This document shows, piece after piece, positions 15,267-22,024 of a DNA stretch of 64,000 nucleotides (the first letter of the stretch is position 1; each line of letters opens with the position of its first letter). A model generated the notes under the pieces. That model did no database searches. It saw only the letters and a list, made by a program, of their open reading frames with translations, and was not told the origin of the DNA. The position numbers and the translations under genes are program-made. This DNA comes from Candidatus Melainabacteria bacterium (lineage in GTDB: Bacteria > Cyanobacteriota > Vampirovibrionia > Obscuribacterales > Obscuribacteraceae): assembly GCA_027451745.1 (NCBI GenBank), contig DAIDIP010000003.1, positions 1-64,000 on the forward strand. The letters are read 5' to 3'.

Positions 15267-16559
15267 CTATGGAAATAAGCCACGCAAACGTCTTGCCTCA
15301 ACGACTCGCAATAAAGCAATCTGCATAGCAGCATCACGCAAAGAAATTTTTTCTTTGTTAGCTAGAACAAAAACTCGATCGCAAGTATCAACTACCAATG
15401 TTTTGAGACGATCAAGAGTTTCTTCTTCCGACCACAAAAGTCTAATAATGCCTTGCACCCATTCATAATAAGCAATCGAAAGACCGGCAGCATTAGCCAA
15501 TATATCTGGAACCAACGGAATGTCTCGTTCTTGTAAAATATCATCAGCTTCAGGAGTAGTGGGGGCGTTGGCTCCTTCAACCACTAATTTACATTTTAAA
15601 TTCCGAGCATTCTTTTCATTGATCTGGTTGGGTGTAGCACAAGGAATAAGAATGTCACAAGGTTGTTCAAGAAGCTCCTCTCCGCGTAAATATTGTGCTT
15701 CGCGATATCCTTTTAGAAGCCCAGACTTTTCGTTTCTGTGGGTTAACTCTGGTATATCAATACCTGCTTTGTTATAAATTGCCCCCGTACTATCAGCAAT
15801 ACCAACAATTTTATAACCATGCTCATGCAGAATTTTTGCAGCAGCTGATCCAACACTGCCAAAACCTTGCAAAACAACGGTGGGACTATTGCCACCTATA
15901 TTCAATCTTTTTGCTGCATTCATTGCACATAAAGCAACTCCAAAACCTGTCGCTTCGTTCAGGCTAACGGAACCGCCTATTGATTTAGGCTTGCCAGTTA
16001 CAACCGAAGGCACCGTGTAACCAACATTCATACTGAATGTGTCCATTACCCAAGCCATAGTTTGTTCGTTTGTATTTAAATCAGGGCCAAGGATATCTTG
16101 GTTAGGACCAAGATAAGGAATCATTTCGGTCACATAGCGTCTGGTTAATCGCTCCTTCTCAGCCATGCTAAGCGCTTTGGCATCAACACGGATGCCACCA
16201 TGGGCACCACCAAAAGGTAAATTCATAAGAGCGCATTTCCAAGTCATGAGCATAGCCATAGCAGCTACTGAGCTTAAGCTAACTTCAGGGTGCATGCGTA
16301 TGCCACCTGCTCCAGGACCCAGAGCTAAATCATGATGAACTCTATAGCCCCAATAAGTCTTGACATCGCCATTATCCAAATGGATAGGAAGAACAACAAT
16401 CATCGAGCGCTTTGGTTGTTTTAATGGGCTTATTTCATGGTCTTCTAGTTTTAAGCGTCGAGCCGTATGGAGCAGTCTATGCTCAGCCATGGAAAAATCA
16501 TCATTTTCCCATTCATTAGCAATTGTGAGGACGCTTTCGCTTGCTTTTTTGTTTTTCAT
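15267..16559 (-). CDS. Glutamate-dehydrogenase-like protein with altered active site
   Basis: This 430-residue Glu/Leu/Phe/Val dehydrogenase-family protein has the expected architecture: a substrate domain (about 45-190) and a Rossmann domain with VVLQGFGSVGSAAAKIL (about 228-243). Compared with the well-known Clostridium symbiosum enzyme, the position of Lys89 (GPxKGG) is Ala84 here, the catalytic Lys125 (GGAKGG) is His120 (GGAHGG), and Ser380 is Ala363 (SIAYYEWVQ). Lys108, equivalent to Lys113, and the catalytic Asp160 are kept. It may therefore use another amino acid or be non-catalytic. It follows ftcD by two bases, so the pair is probably co-transcribed. Confidence 0.88.
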   Translation of the reverse strand: MKNKKASESVLTIANEWENDDFSMAEHRLLHTARRLKLEDHEISPLKQPKRSMIVVLPIHLDNGDVKTYWGYRVHHDLALGPGAGGIRMHPEVSLSSVAAMAMLMTWKCALMNLPFGGAHGGIRVDAKALSMAEKERLTRRYVTEMIPYLGPNQDILGPDLNTNEQTMAWVMDTFSMNVGYTVPSVVTGKPKSIGGSVSLNEATGFGVALCAMNAAKRLNIGGNSPTVVLQGFGSVGSAAAKILHEHGYKIVGIADSTGAIYNKAGIDIPELTHRNEKSGLLKGYREAQYLRGEELLEQPCDILIPCATPNQINEKNARNLKCKLVVEGANAPTTPEADDILQERDIPLVPDILANAAGLSIAYYEWVQGIIRLLWSEEETLDRLKTLVVDTCDRVFVLANKEKISLRDAAMQIALLRVVEARRLRGLFP

Positions 16560-16561
16560 GG

Positions 16562-17602
16562 CTAAATAGCGGAAGGAGAGACTAACAAACCAAATTGATT
16601 CAACTTGTATTCTAATACTTTTTCTGATGCTTTGAATAGAAAATGTTTGCTTAAATTGAGGAAAGTAATCGCTTCGCTTATAAGTCGATCGTCGCTAAAA
16701 GTCATTTTTTGGTTGTTTCCCTGACTAACAATAAATCTACCGGTGTCCAGCAAAGCTTGAAGAGGCACTAAACCAATAATTTCGCTGCTGATTACTTTCA
16801 CGCCGTGCAGACTTGCCAAGTTCTTTACGCCCAGAAAAGCTTGATGAAGAGAGGTTTGTTTATAGTCCAATAAATTTAAAGATATTTGGCAATTTCGATA
16901 CTCATCGATATACCATGCGATGGCCTGGCTTTCCTTCCAAGTTAATTGCTGGGCTTGATCTGTTTTTTGTTCATGCAACTGTCTTTGCTCGCGTATAGAT
17001 TGAGCAATTGTTTTAGCAATTTTTAGATCTTTAGTATCTAAATCTATGTTGTAAGCAATAAGCATTTTTCGGGCACCAATAGCGGTGGCACCAGATTTCC
17101 AGTTACAAACAACTGGTCCAAAATCAGGTTTAAATACTAATTCGTCTATGCGTAGAAATAAATTCTCATATTCTCCACCGCGAATATAAGAAAGCAAGCG
17201 TCTTTCAGGTGATTGCGCGGATTCACCGTATAAATAGGTGGGAATTCCGAGCTCATTTCCAACCCTAGAAGCAAGTCTTTTACTTAGCTCAACACACTCA
17301 GCCATTGTTATATTGCTTATTGGAATTAGAGGGCATACATCGGTGGCCCCAATGCGCGGGTGTGAGCCTTTATGATTGCGCATATCAATTAATTGACTGG
17401 TTTGTTCTATTACATTAAATGCTGCCTGTAAAACAGCTTCTGGGCCTCCAGCAAAAGTAATGACTGTTCGATTGGCACCCATACCAATATCTTTGTGTAG
17501 CAAATAGGCTCCGTCTACGCCAGTAACAGCGTTTAAGATGGCTTCAATTACTGCTACATCTCTTCCTTCGCTAATATTGGGTACACATTCAACTATTTGC
17601 AT
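16562..17602 (-). CDS. ftcD: Glutamate formimidoyltransferase
   Basis: This protein corresponds to the formiminotransferase part of FtcD, which moves the formimino group from N-formimino-glutamate to tetrahydrofolate, a late step in histidine breakdown. In 346 residues it has ECVPNISEGRD at the N-terminus and MRNHKGSHPRIGATDVCPLIP, which holds the catalytic histidine. The C-terminal subdomain begins near GPVVCNWKSGATAIGARKMLIAYN. The cyclodeaminase domain found in vertebrate FTCD is absent. No hut genes are nearby, so a different folate one-carbon role is possible. It precedes the dehydrogenase-like gene by two bases. Confidence 0.88.
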   Translation of the reverse strand: MQIVECVPNISEGRDVAVIEAILNAVTGVDGAYLLHKDIGMGANRTVITFAGGPEAVLQAAFNVIEQTSQLIDMRNHKGSHPRIGATDVCPLIPISNITMAECVELSKRLASRVGNELGIPTYLYGESAQSPERRLLSYIRGGEYENLFLRIDELVFKPDFGPVVCNWKSGATAIGARKMLIAYNIDLDTKDLKIAKTIAQSIREQRQLHEQKTDQAQQLTWKESQAIAWYIDEYRNCQISLNLLDYKQTSLHQAFLGVKNLASLHGVKVISSEIIGLVPLQALLDTGRFIVSQGNNQKMTFSDDRLISEAITFLNLSKHFLFKASEKVLEYKLNQFGLLVSPSAI

Positions 17603-17679: not shown

Positions 17680-18954
17680 CTATTTAGTTTCAGGAAAATC
17701 TTTCTTCCTGATATGAGCATGTATGCCTTTTGTTTCATCAACAACTTGTGTGACTTCAAAATCTGTCGCACCGCTCATATAAGCAAGGGCTGTGGCTGGC
17801 TCCATACCCATTTTAGAGGTAAGAAAATTAAGCGCTGCACGCACTGTCTTTTTCATAGCCTCATTTAAATCCGGATCAAGTCCTATAGGTATCCAATATT
17901 CTGGAGTTTCAGCAAACGGTTCAGTAAATAATCCCTTTCCTGGGATACTTGGATCGCCGGCTTTGAGCACAGTAAGCTTTAATGTAGTTCTAAGCGAACC
18001 TTCTACAGCGGTGAGCGCCACTTCTCCATCTCCTTGAGCAAAGTGTGAATCGCCAAGGAAGAACATGCCGCCAGGTAATTGAATAGGCAAATACAAAGAA
18101 GCTCCAGGTGTTAGATCTTTAAGATCTAGATTGCCACCATAAGCAGCTGGCGGTATGGAATTAAGTCTGTTTGTTGTATCTGCTGCTACACCAATAATAC
18201 CCATAAAAGGATGAAGCGGGAAATGCACTTCTTGTCCTTTTGTATTATGTACAATACCACTCAATTTGCCATCAACATTTTTAATTGGCACAAAGGTAAA
18301 CACATTGCCAAATAATTCGGGGTGATGCTTATCCGCACCTGGCTCTGGCCCAGAGTTTTGAGGATATTCACCAGGTAGTGCACCCTTACCATGCCTGTTG
18401 CCAATTATGCCATAAGGGACTCTTGGAGTTAAGGAAACAACGTCTACCTTAAGGACATCTCCTGGTTGCGCTCCTTCTATTGCTACTGGTCCAATAATAA
18501 TATGAGGACCATCTTTAGCAATGTTATGAGGCAAATTAGAAGCACAAATTTCTACTGCGTCATCTAATACTTCGTCCTTATGAACGCCAAATTTTCCAAA
18601 GAATTTGATTGGATCACGCCCTTGATCCTCAACCATGCCTTCAGATGAAAGAGTATCAAAAGTTACTACGCTCTTAGAAGGTACTGTCAAGATTGCTTGT
18701 GATTCTTTATTAGGAAGATACCCCCAACGTATGGTAGAGAGTGTTGCAGGCACATAAAAGTTTCCATTGGCTAGTTTACAAGGACTCATATGTGTCCGTT
18801 GCAATATTTCAGTATTGTGAGTAGCCGGTAACTGTGTGCTTGCAATGCGAGTTGTCTCAGCTAAGCCAATGGTTGCTGGGAGCAGCCCCAGAGCCAGACT
18901 CAATAGAACATAGGTTGCAGTTTTCTTGATTGCAATAAAAGGTTTCTGCGTCAT
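17680..18954 (-). CDS. Exported acetamidase/formamidase-family protein
   Basis: This 424-residue protein has a clear signal peptide (IKKTATYVLLSLALGLLPATIGLAE) followed by an FmdA/AmdA-type beta-rich domain. Family features include GPVAIEGAQPGDVLKVDVVSL, PLHPFMGIIGVA, GGNLDLKDLTPGASLYLPI and GDSHFAQGDGEVALTAVE. The family hydrolyses formamide, acetamide or related short amides to ammonia and acid. The signal peptide suggests periplasmic action, perhaps nitrogen scavenging. ATG 18954 is preceded by GAGGAAG; upstream codons to 19047 lack a ribosome binding site and would bury the signal peptide. A terminator follows. Confidence 0.88.
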   Translation of the reverse strand: MTQKPFIAIKKTATYVLLSLALGLLPATIGLAETTRIASTQLPATHNTEILQRTHMSPCKLANGNFYVPATLSTIRWGYLPNKESQAILTVPSKSVVTFDTLSSEGMVEDQGRDPIKFFGKFGVHKDEVLDDAVEICASNLPHNIAKDGPHIIIGPVAIEGAQPGDVLKVDVVSLTPRVPYGIIGNRHGKGALPGEYPQNSGPEPGADKHHPELFGNVFTFVPIKNVDGKLSGIVHNTKGQEVHFPLHPFMGIIGVAADTTNRLNSIPPAAYGGNLDLKDLTPGASLYLPIQLPGGMFFLGDSHFAQGDGEVALTAVEGSLRTTLKLTVLKAGDPSIPGKGLFTEPFAETPEYWIPIGLDPDLNEAMKKTVRAALNFLTSKMGMEPATALAYMSGATDFEVTQVVDETKGIHAHIRKKDFPETK

Positions 18955-19202
18955 ACTAGATTCTTCCTCATAATATTTTTTGGATACTACTACTGATACC
19001 AGCTTGCAAACATGTTGATAATATTCTTTAAGACTAGACACTGGCAATTTTACCAGGACTCTACATGTCCTTAAGCGTCAAGAGGACTTTTTCGGGTTAA
19101 ATTTCAAAAGATAAAATCTATTGCTTGCTTAATTCGCTATAGTACGAATATCTTAGTTTGGCAAAGGTATATTCTTGCAGAGCTTTAATTACTATAGACA
19201 TT

Positions 19203-20108
19203 TTAGTCTAGAGCCTGCAGCAAATCAGCCAAGCCAGTATTGAGAAGATCTATAATGCCGCGCAAATCGAATAACATGGTGATTCTACTATTAATAAGCT
19301 TAATGGTTTCGCTCCACCAGCGGTGGCGCGGGCCCAGAACAGACACTTGTTCAATCGTTGACTGTTTTTTGATATTGATCGGAAGAACTTTAGCGTTTTT
19401 CCAATATTCAATTAATTGCTGTCTTCTTGTTAATAGATTTGTGGAGGTGTAATCTGGATTCACTGAATTCAAATAGGACCATAACATGGGTGGGAATTTT
19501 TCTTCGGCCGGAGGCTCTAATCCAAGGGGTTGCCCAAGCATATTTGGTGCAGTACCAGACCTTCTAAAACCACCGTGTTGCTCTGTTAAAGCTAGTAGTG
19601 CAAAACCCCCTACCATAAGCCCTGAAACAATGTTTAGTCTATTGCTATCACGATTATTAGTAGGATTGTGAGATTGCCCCAAAGGGCCATCGATAATTGT
19701 ACTTAAAATCCCTAATTGTAAGAAGTTGATATTATTTGTTGCTGCTACGGCAAAGTCTCGCTGCCTTGTAAGTTTATCTAATGCTTGCTGCTCAAAAGCG
19801 ATTTCTTTATCAAGCTTGGCTGACGTTGTGCGTAATTCTAAGCCGGCAGTCATAACTTTGCGAATTATAGTCAGCTGCAATTTTAGAGAATCACCATCTA
19901 GTGCATTTATTTTACCGCTGTTCTTAAGATCAATAAATCTATTTACTTGGCTTTCAAGACCCAGTAATTTCGCTGCTTCTTGCGCTTGCGGTGTTAATGT
20001 AATCGCGGTATCGGCAAATGCTCTTAGAGGGGAAGATAAGACTAACAAGCAGACAAAGATGCTTATTAAAAATCGTTGTTTAAGATCAGGCTGGCTCATA
20101 AATTGCAT
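19203..20108 (-). CDS. Exported protein with one copy of an unrecognised helical domain
   Basis: The 301-residue product starts with a signal sequence (FLISIFVCLLVLSSPLRAFA). One domain of about 250 residues follows that is repeated twice in the neighbouring upstream gene. The shared pattern is LGLxSQVxxFIxLK, then LELRTxSAKLDKEI, a charged coiled stretch, NINFLQLGIL, a glycine-rich hydrophobic segment (IVSGLMVGGFALLAL) that may be membrane-associated, TRRQQLIEYW, and a final long helix with NSRITMLFDL. The function is unknown. Its ATG overlaps the TAA of the upstream gene by one base (TAATG), indicating translational coupling. Confidence 0.8.
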   Translation of the reverse strand: MQFMSQPDLKQRFLISIFVCLLVLSSPLRAFADTAITLTPQAQEAAKLLGLESQVNRFIDLKNSGKINALDGDSLKLQLTIIRKVMTAGLELRTTSAKLDKEIAFEQQALDKLTRQRDFAVAATNNINFLQLGILSTIIDGPLGQSHNPTNNRDSNRLNIVSGLMVGGFALLALTEQHGGFRRSGTAPNMLGQPLGLEPPAEEKFPPMLWSYLNSVNPDYTSTNLLTRRQQLIEYWKNAKVLPINIKKQSTIEQVSVLGPRHRWWSETIKLINSRITMLFDLRGIIDLLNTGLADLLQALD

Positions 20109-21769
20109 TACTCTGTAGTCCGCAAAAGTTCCAGAACCTGAAACTGAAAAGATTCAAGCTCTTTTTTTAAGGAATGAAGTAGAACATTTCGGTTAGTTAC
20201 TATTTTAATTGTGTCCCATTTATGCGATGGCATGTCAGCAAGTGCCTCGCGTGTTTTAAAACGATCTAGATTCACTGTAGTGACGCGATTTTTTCTCCAA
20301 GCCTCGTTAAGTACCTCTCTTCTTGTTTTTCCATCTGTTGATCCTGGAGGAGGAGTATTGAGAAAGTTTGATACAAAAGGAGAGAAGCGGTATTGTTCAG
20401 CAGGGTTGAGATTCAAAGTTTCAGCAAGTGAATTTGGTTCTACATCTACTTTTCTCCAGAAACCATGCATTGCTAATATATTGAGCGTGGTTAATCCTGT
20501 ACCAATACCGCCAGAAATCACAAATTGTTTATCGCCAGCCCAGGACCAACGACTGAGATAAAGCCTTCCAGCAATTATGCCCATAATGCCCGACTGCAAG
20601 AAGTTTAAGTTATAAATCCATTGTTGCCATTTTGCACGGCTGGCAAGCAAGCTTGCAAGAATGACATGGTAGTTGTAGTTTAATTCGTCATCGACTTTAT
20701 CACTAGCCACCTGTAATTCTAGTGCGCCTTCTAGGGCTCTTTCTAGCACTAGTAAATTTAGCTCATCCCGTCTTTTGTCTTCAATATTACTTTGTTTTAG
20801 TTTGATCAGTTCTTCGACTTGTGACTGTATATTTAAAAGCCTCACCACTTCAAGCTCATCTGCATTGCATTCGCTTGATATTCTCTTACTGCTATATACA
20901 CCTGGAGCTTCTGCAGAGGTACCATTTACCATTTTGAGCAAGGCAAGCAAGTCATAATCAAAGTCTTGCACGCAAGTATGGAGAGACCACAATAATAAAA
21001 TCCGATTGCTGAGGAATCCAGTACTGGCTCTCTTTTTGTCTTTAATTGCACATAGATTTTTTTCTTTCGATGGATCGATATGATAATGTGTCTTCCACAT
21101 AGCAAATAGTTCTTCTCGGCGGGTTTGACTAGAACCTGGCACTTGTGAATCTAGGAATTTAGTAACGAGTGGAGGTAGATGTTTAGTGTCAACCGGCCAA
21201 CCATCAACAATGTCTGCCAATACTTTTGGTGGGGCGATATGATTGGCTTTAGCCATATGTCCATATAATTTTGATAAGGTGGCAAGCAAGGTACCAAGCG
21301 ATCCACTAGTGGTTGTGAATATGGCTGACATCACAAATTGATCGTGCTGACGAACAAAAGGTTCAAGAGTATAGAAAGTAGAGAGTTGAGCGAAGTTGGC
21401 CAAGTTGAAAAGCTCAAAAATGAAAGCTTCCCGTCGCTGCTCTTTTTGCATGATATCGTAGGTGTAAGCAAGCTCAAGATCAATTTTGTTGCATGCCTGA
21501 CGAACTTCAATCACTGCACAAAGTATTTTTCTCAATATCAGACTCTTGAGAAGCAGTTTTTCTTCGGATTGATTTTCTCGGCTTCCTGTTTCTGTTCGGA
21601 TAGCAAGCAAGTGATCTACATATGGTCGGATACCGATTATATCGGCTCCCTGCATTGCATCAGCTTGTCCAAGGTGAATAGGTTCAGGTTTTACATAAGC
21701 CAAACATTGCGGCGATAAAATGAGCCAACAAAGAAAAACCGAAAGAAAGCGATTTCGCACCGACACCAA
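20108..21769 (-). CDS. Exported protein with two tandem copies of the same unrecognised domain
   Basis: This 553-residue protein begins with a signal peptide (FLSVFLCWLILSPQCLA). It has two related halves, about residues 40-270 and 300-550. Both contain an E-(L/V)-R/Q...K-(I/V)-D-x-E-L heptad region, an N-(L/F)-x-F-x-Q turn, a hydrophobic glycine-rich stretch, a TRREELFxMW or TRREVLNEAW motif and a terminal NRxLLxSL helix. These match the single copy in the next gene. No known domain is recognised. The start is uncertain: there is no ATG, and TTG 21769, GTG 21766 and GTG 21760 are all possible with poor ribosome binding sites. Confidence 0.78.
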   Translation of the reverse strand: MVSVRNRFLSVFLCWLILSPQCLAYVKPEPIHLGQADAMQGADIIGIRPYVDHLLAIRTETGSRENQSEEKLLLKSLILRKILCAVIEVRQACNKIDLELAYTYDIMQKEQRREAFIFELFNLANFAQLSTFYTLEPFVRQHDQFVMSAIFTTTSGSLGTLLATLSKLYGHMAKANHIAPPKVLADIVDGWPVDTKHLPPLVTKFLDSQVPGSSQTRREELFAMWKTHYHIDPSKEKNLCAIKDKKRASTGFLSNRILLLWSLHTCVQDFDYDLLALLKMVNGTSAEAPGVYSSKRISSECNADELEVVRLLNIQSQVEELIKLKQSNIEDKRRDELNLLVLERALEGALELQVASDKVDDELNYNYHVILASLLASRAKWQQWIYNLNFLQSGIMGIIAGRLYLSRWSWAGDKQFVISGGIGTGLTTLNILAMHGFWRKVDVEPNSLAETLNLNPAEQYRFSPFVSNFLNTPPPGSTDGKTRREVLNEAWRKNRVTTVNLDRFKTREALADMPSHKWDTIKIVTNRNVLLHSLKKELESFQFQVLELLRTTE

Positions 21770-21934
21770 TTCTAATTACTTTCGCCCCTCAAATTATCGG
21801 CCGAAATACCCTATTCCCCAGAAGAATGGAAGACATAAAAAAATGCAGCAAATTCATTGTGACATATTGAAAACAGCTAACGATTCATCCCAAATGAAAG
21901 TAGCAAATTCAAACTTGATCTAAAAGTTAATTGG

Positions 21935-22024
21935 CGGAGAGGCAGGGATTTGAACCCTGGATACAGCTTTTGACCGTATAACTTCTTAGCAGGAAGCCGC
22001 TTTCGACCACTCAGCCACCTCTCC
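21935..22024 (-). tRNA. tRNA-Ser (GCT anticodon)
   Basis: The acceptor arms GGAGAGG and CCTCTCC pair perfectly. The anticodon loop CTGCTAA contains GCT, reading AGC/AGU serine codons. A long variable arm is present, as in serine tRNAs, and the T arm contains GGTTCAAATCC. The length is 90 nt. No CCA is encoded directly after the discriminator base. Confidence 0.95.

Follow-up and report, generated by a model that had tools for sequence, protein, structure and literature searches.

Among described systems, SatP and UreI stand closest to the locus considered here, and a passage of Ovchinnikov et al. (PMC4602095) assigns both to a common fold, described as 'threefold pseudo-symmetric TMH hairpins'. 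UreI is portrayed in part of PMC12087780 as three two-helix hairpins with both termini periplasmic, and a passage of PMC13316224 gives the constriction of SatP as three hydrophobic residues (F, Y and L), with Leu131 named as a neck residue also in a section of PMC4602095. A parallel in gene order is offered by Methylophilus, whose fmdCABDEF cluster, according to a section of PMC10781810, brings the formamidase gene together with a channel for short amides; the channel component, FmdC, is described as a porin in passages of PMC5877670 and PMC10781810. In this work, we examine two coupled genes in a 64,000-nucleotide stretch of DNA from a Candidatus Melainabacteria bacterium (the window, meaning the whole stretch analysed), whose products carry three homologous domains and can be compared with these channels by predicted fold and by gene neighbourhood.

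Two coupled genes and their three domains

The larger gene of the pair (positions 20108..21769, reverse strand) has a TTG start by the open-reading-frame rule and encodes a 553-aa protein that opens with an N-terminal signal sequence and contains domains 1 and 2. Domain 1 (20915..21673, reverse strand) was delimited by HMM domain borders and belongs to the D1 clade of the domain tree, and domain 2 (20111..20872, reverse strand) was assigned from HMM borders and the same tree. The smaller gene (19203..20108, reverse strand) starts with ATG and encodes a 301-aa protein that constitutes domain 3, falls in the D3 clade and has a signal sequence of its own. The two genes are coupled by a TAATG overlap, in which the start codon of the 301-aa gene shares bases with the stop codon of the 553-aa gene. 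A tRNA-Ser (gct) gene (window 21932-22024) lies just upstream of the 553-aa gene on the same strand.

When the own genome was searched as a whole with BLAST, the 301-aa protein hit both halves of the 553-aa protein, the second at E 1.2e-24 with 31% identity and the first at E 1.6e-13 with 28% identity. Compared directly with one another, these halves align at 26% identity, with an E value of 1e-18 that applies to the single comparison. Judged from these alignments, homology of the three domains is far beyond chance. An earlier note on this DNA had claimed three homologous copies in two coupled genes, and this claim is upheld by BLAST E values of 1e-13 to 1e-24, by the open reading frames at the positions given above and by the TAATG overlap. 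The ordered motif pattern that it described holds in part: by inspection, TRRxxLxxxW is present in domains 1, 2 and 3, whereas three others are each inexact in one domain, with E-L-x5-K-x-D-x-E exact in domains 2 and 3 and beginning E-V in domain 1, NxxFxQ exact in domains 2 and 3 and reduced to NFxQ in domain 1, and NRxxLL exact in domains 1 and 2 and represented by SRITML in domain 3. Likewise, the statement that all copies have signal sequences is right for each of the two proteins, whose signal-like N-terminal segments reach 19-residue hydropathy values of 1.86 and 2.14, but not for the middle domain, which has none of its own.

The family had also been called unrecognised, and it is indeed without a Pfam, NCBIfam or PDB-sequence match. 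Pfam and NCBIfam searches with the 553-aa and 301-aa proteins returned chance rows only (E > 0.05), and Pfam searches with 117 domain copies gave 51 scattered families, none of which, among the 25 of 51 listed, occurs in more than five of the 117 copies. Neither PF01184 (SatP/AceTr) nor PF02293 (UreI/AmiS) is among these 25 of 51 families, nor among the six of six for 11 joined-hairpin sequences. A PDB sequence search with the domain family found no similar sequence (one row at E 2.2), a PDB sequence search for a SatP/UreI relation of the hairpins found no match, and hhalign of the domain hairpins against SatP gave a probability of 0.2 on the tool's scale of 0-100. Plasmid and phage searches for the domain family produced no match. 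In the full-text literature on the order, on amidases or channels in it, on the evolution of the UreI/SatP fold and on expanded families without a name there, a scope that leaves out most subscription papers and all bioRxiv preprints, we found no paper on the domain family.

A search with the 301-aa protein found matches in 53 of 99 relatives (own genome counted), namely all 50 genomes of its own family and all three of a second family in the same order, Obscuribacterales; the domain family is absent from all 46 genomes of other families in the class. A profile of the domain alignment (A1, 117 rows), run against 292 genomes of the phylum, matched two, the own genome and G243, where the match is a 38-aa frame at E 0.0066 that was taken as chance. 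Within the searched genomes, the family is thus confined to Obscuribacterales, which are non-photosynthetic Cyanobacteriota. The relatives at 12 loci are Candidatus Obscuribacterales or Melainabacteria MAGs, some labelled only 'Cyanobacteria' or 'uncultured bacterium'. Domain matches number 2-16 per genome (53 genomes, a few fragments included), and the own genome holds seven copies, the window's three and four single-domain paralogs on other contigs. The A1 alignment derives from 122 copies (118 after thinning, 117 rows; three further near-identical copies were dropped), and an incomplete domain (L073:2-469) was excluded from it and from the trees. A domain match in G011 (L137, G011:C16), located in a '24,269-aa open frame', was rejected as an artefact, the frame being an assembly gap of N in which 3334 of the 3592 residues examined are X.

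Split and fused layouts and neighbouring enzymes

An iterated HMM search of 41 stretches recovered 122 domain copies in 65 ORFs, and an HMM search of 101 stretches recovered 142 ORFs, comprising 84 with one domain, 15 with two (five of them apparently cut by contig ends) and 43 with three. In other genomes, the three domains make up one protein of ~830 aa. In a tree of 121 domains, each part of the window pair joins its counterpart in these fused proteins, the 301-aa protein grouping with third domains and the two halves of the larger protein with first and second ones, positions that mark the window pair as one three-part unit cut after domain 2. Where the unit is split, the two genes overlap by at most 4 bases or are separated by no more than 11, and the split or fused state changed at least four times on a tree of 33 second domains. 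Such repeated interchange is evidence of the Rosetta-stone type, so joint action of the three domains as a single unit is very likely. The recurrent fusion of both genes in relatives also backs the earlier suggestion that their products are made together, perhaps as a complex, and we infer physical contact between the 553-aa and 301-aa proteins.

Larger arrangements of three-domain genes were also observed. In one genome (L053, 6393-14222), three fused three-domain genes stand in tandem, placing nine domains side by side. An island recurring in several genomes (L054, 7400-17764; L055, L073-L076, L107, L109 and L112) comprises a divergent pair of three-domain genes, with an ABM-domain protein and a xanthine-dehydrogenase-like protein on one flank and, in many cases, a Vgb-lyase-like protein and a multicopper oxidase/FG-GAP protein on the other.

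Beside the pair in the window, a gene at 17680..19047 (reverse strand; likely true start an ATG near 18954) encodes an exported acetamidase/formamidase-like protein (PF03069) with a signal sequence by inspection. Its product scores 95.9 bits against FmdA_AmdA (cut-off 27, E 3.1e-27) and 69.2 bits against the formamidase equivalog NF045496, below the latter's cut-off of 500, consistent with a divergent FmdA_AmdA member of putative activity. A PF03069 gene is carried by all 13 testable modules of the window's clade, directly adjoining on the same strand in 12, with a 90-aa ORF call on the opposite strand intervening in L050; in L039, the PF03069 gene lies upstream of the module. A module in G038 (L041) was excluded from the 13 because its contig ends just downstream. 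PF03069 genes occur in 14 of the 53 genomes, in 13 of them beside a module of the window's type and in G009 elsewhere, second PF03069 rows of one genome being pieces of the same gene. The neighbourhood survey that the earlier note had proposed ties the module to a gene for an exported acetamidase/formamidase-like protein. Around these genes, promoter- and terminator-like sites are no commoner than in shuffles, so co-transcription of the pair with 17680-19047 is unsupported. Downstream of the amidase-like gene, window 15267-17602 holds genes for glutamate formimidoyltransferase (FtcD, over cut-off) and glutamate dehydrogenase, which also belong to nitrogen metabolism; neither clustered with any protein from the other stretches compared.

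A second, independent case of an exported-enzyme partner is 8-oxoguanine deaminase (NF006055, over the curated cut-off), which occurs in four of 53 genomes, in all four directly downstream of a three-domain gene; as judged by inspection, it carries a Tat-like leader. Near other family members lie guanine deaminases that have Sec-like leaders (L066 and L110, the two tested, are over cut-off), twin-arginine FAD oxidases and a xanthine-dehydrogenase-like protein, although counts for these neighbours are biased because the stretches were chosen for holding the family. A SatP gene is found in none of the 53 genomes, and an AmiS/UreI gene over cut-off in none, with one sub-threshold row in G008. Additionally, single-domain paralogs stand beside kdp K+-transporter genes in L059, L138, L140, L143, L146, L148, L154 and L155, with KdpC identified in L059 and the kdp neighbours at the other loci assigned by clustering; several of these paralogs also have a ~640-aa protein (cluster 17) nearby.

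Predicted fold and hairpin chemistry

An AlphaFold2 model of the single domain, built from the 117-row A1 alignment, reached pLDDT 94.2 and pTM 0.86 and places helices at 40-111, 117-145 and 237-268 besides short ones, predicting a 72-residue helix that ends in a weakly hydrophobic helical hairpin. In the window, all on the reverse strand, the hairpins correspond to 21257..21433 in domain 1 (a weakly hydrophobic helix-loop-helix with an NFAQ motif), 20465..20641 in domain 2 (NFLQ motif) and 19575..19763 in the 301-aa protein (NFLQ motif; AlphaFold model). The fused relative L044 (824 aa) was modelled at pLDDT 85.2 and pTM 0.82, with a like helix set occurring three times. A difference in fold between the three segments would have spoken against the earlier note, and they share one predicted fold. 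In the fused protein, the three hairpins are predicted to pack into a six-helix bundle around a common axis.

Foldseek returned nothing at E <= 0.001 for either model, and SatP is not among its best 50 rows for the fused one. When Foldseek candidates were aligned with VIA-align, the fused model matched SatP at Z 15.1 (5ys3_B, rmsd 3.1 Å, 164 of 182 residues) and Z 14.8 (5ys8_A), with the next row at Z 7.4 and a stated background for helical bundles of Z ~13. The match runs over model residues 105-706 and takes in 164 of the 182 SatP residues, so all three domains contribute. For this one predicted model, SatP is the best solved match, far above others. The predicted SatP-like six-helix packing, the link to an exported acetamidase/formamidase-like gene and the confinement to one order among the searched genomes all go beyond the earlier note.

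The chemistry of the hairpins bears on whether such a bundle would sit in a membrane. Across all four domain classes (117 sequences), charged residues make up a fraction of 0.28-0.34 in the long helix, which drops to 0.01-0.07 in either helix of the hairpin. Of these two, helix a, with a best 19-mer hydropathy of 0.71-1.06 against 0.46-0.93 in control helices of the same protein, is not more hydrophobic than the controls, and the E. coli SatP helices (1.11-2.39) lie above it; helix b is more hydrophobic, though most E. coli SatP helices surpass it as well. Positive charge is not enriched in the loop of the hairpin and the flanks are about equally or more positive, a pattern contrary to what the positive-inside rule would require of a protein in the inner membrane whose ends are periplasmic. 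Periplasmic termini are suggested by the signal sequences, but the charge pattern does not support them. We infer that the hairpin bundle may lie in a membrane, although some features count against this, and the hairpin features would be easier to reconcile with an outer-membrane location, or with insertion following export, than with ordinary co-translational insertion.

Of 117 domains, 112 have F at motif position 97, and 93 have Q two residues further along. The near-invariant F corresponds to F126 (hairpin 1) and F390 (hairpin 2) in the 553-aa protein, to F129 (hairpin 3) in the 301-aa protein and to F118, F381 and F654 in L044. The neck F and Y of SatP are presumably E. coli residues 17 and 72, and the letters at 17, 72 and 131 of the E. 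coli SatP sequence agree with F, Y and L. Equivalence of the hairpin phenylalanines with these pore-neck residues is suggestive only.

A candidate pore, its rivals and known systems

We give an even chance to the reading that the module is a SatP/UreI-like pore of three exported hairpin domains, which stands beside exported hydrolases and serves small nitrogen compounds or what is made from them. The two genes would yield one unit of three homologous exported domains, each a ~70-residue helix with a helical hairpin, and the three hairpins would form a SatP-shaped six-helix bundle. Lying in the inner or outer membrane, this bundle would act as a selective pore, possibly narrowed by a ring of three near-invariant phenylalanines (F126, F390 and F129), with the domain rods in the periplasm. 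For the window module, the cargo would be the substrate or products of the neighbouring exported acetamidase/formamidase-like enzyme, namely short amides, formate/acetate or ammonia. Other exported deaminases would have paralogous modules at their service, and the same pore could arise from single-domain paralogs as homotrimers. Counting against a pore, some paralogs stand beside oxidases or kdp genes, not hydrolases.

The main rival, unlikely yet to be taken seriously, is a non-conducting periplasmic and perhaps membrane-anchored pseudo-trimer scaffold, whose hairpins would be an assembly core holding exported enzymes (amidase, deaminases, FAD oxidases). The weak hydrophobicity of helix a, the lack of a positive-inside signal and the diversity of the exported partner enzymes all suit a scaffold, and geometry by itself could make three hairpins packed round an axis look like SatP; however, both hairpin helices are nearly charge-free across divergent sequences, which is unusual for the outward face of a soluble bundle, and the match to 164 of 182 SatP residues stands alone. 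The single-domain VIA-align rows (XaxA Z 7.5, MakA 7.0, SmhB 6.6 and AhlB 6.4, over 160-177 residues), together with MakA as the first Foldseek row, albeit at E 1.9, led us to consider a tripartite system of the XaxA/MakA/AhlB alpha-pore-forming-toxin kind, in which exported, hydrophobic-headed helical proteins insert into foreign membranes. We hold this very improbable: these Z values lie under the ~13 helical-bundle background, the fused model prefers SatP by far, no Pfam toxin family is recurrent among the 117 domain copies (25 of 51 families listed), and the domain family occurs in all 53 genomes of the order in 2-16 copies, beside metabolic enzymes. A slim chance is left for a sensor or regulator of neighbouring enzymes or transporters, as the position of some single-domain paralogs near histidine kinases or the kdp cluster might suggest, but three-domain modules adjoin enzymes, and family ORFs are about as long as domains plus leader, leaving little room for a fused signalling domain.

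If the pore reading is true, the small-molecule pores of a whole order of non-photosynthetic Cyanobacteriota would come from a family not described before, present in 2-16 domain copies per genome and linked with exported hydrolases of amide and purine nitrogen, while SatP and recognisable UreI/AmiS are lacking from these genomes. It would also supply a testable case of a three-fold hairpin channel assembled from separate subunits, in which single, paired, split and fused forms coexist. We regard as rather doubtful the further proposal of a SatP/UreI-shaped channel whose hairpins are still separate exported domains, so that single-domain genes would give homotrimers, split genes mixed trimers and fused genes pseudo-trimers. 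To our knowledge, the SatP/UreI fold is known only as one finished polypeptide, and separate hairpins would represent a living un-fused stage, or an independent reinvention, of that fold.

Compared with known systems, the module resembles the XaxA/MakA/AhlB alpha-pore-forming toxins in its exported helical rod with a hydrophobic hairpin and in a middling structural match, but that match stays within the helical-bundle background, and the module has a metabolic gene context and is present throughout one order. With Methylophilus fmdCABDEF, it shares the placing of a formamidase(-like) gene beside a (putative) channel gene, whereas FmdC is described as a porin and the module is an all-helical three-domain protein. 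UreI/AmiS (PF02293), by the literature of SatP fold with periplasmic termini, would be a logical partner for an amidase, but the module has no sequence match to it among the Pfam families listed; UreI is not among the VIA-align rows listed for the fused model, an absence that carries no weight. SatP/AceTr (Gpr1_Fun34_YaaH, PF01184) is alike in the six-helix bundle of three hairpins, predicted in the SatP arrangement by the model only, and perhaps in an aromatic or hydrophobic residue that each hairpin has at a broadly comparable position (the three L044 phenylalanines). It differs in showing no sequence similarity to the three-domain module, in the NPAPLGL motif at its helix 1, missing from the module hairpin sequences inspected, and in being one 188-aa protein, unlike three exported ~250-aa domains on one or two chains with signal sequences; SatP is further characterised by a hexameric assembly of six-helix protomers. 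Since the module departs from the SatP and UreI families in sequence and architecture, we keep it out of them, yet by predicted fold it would work like them.
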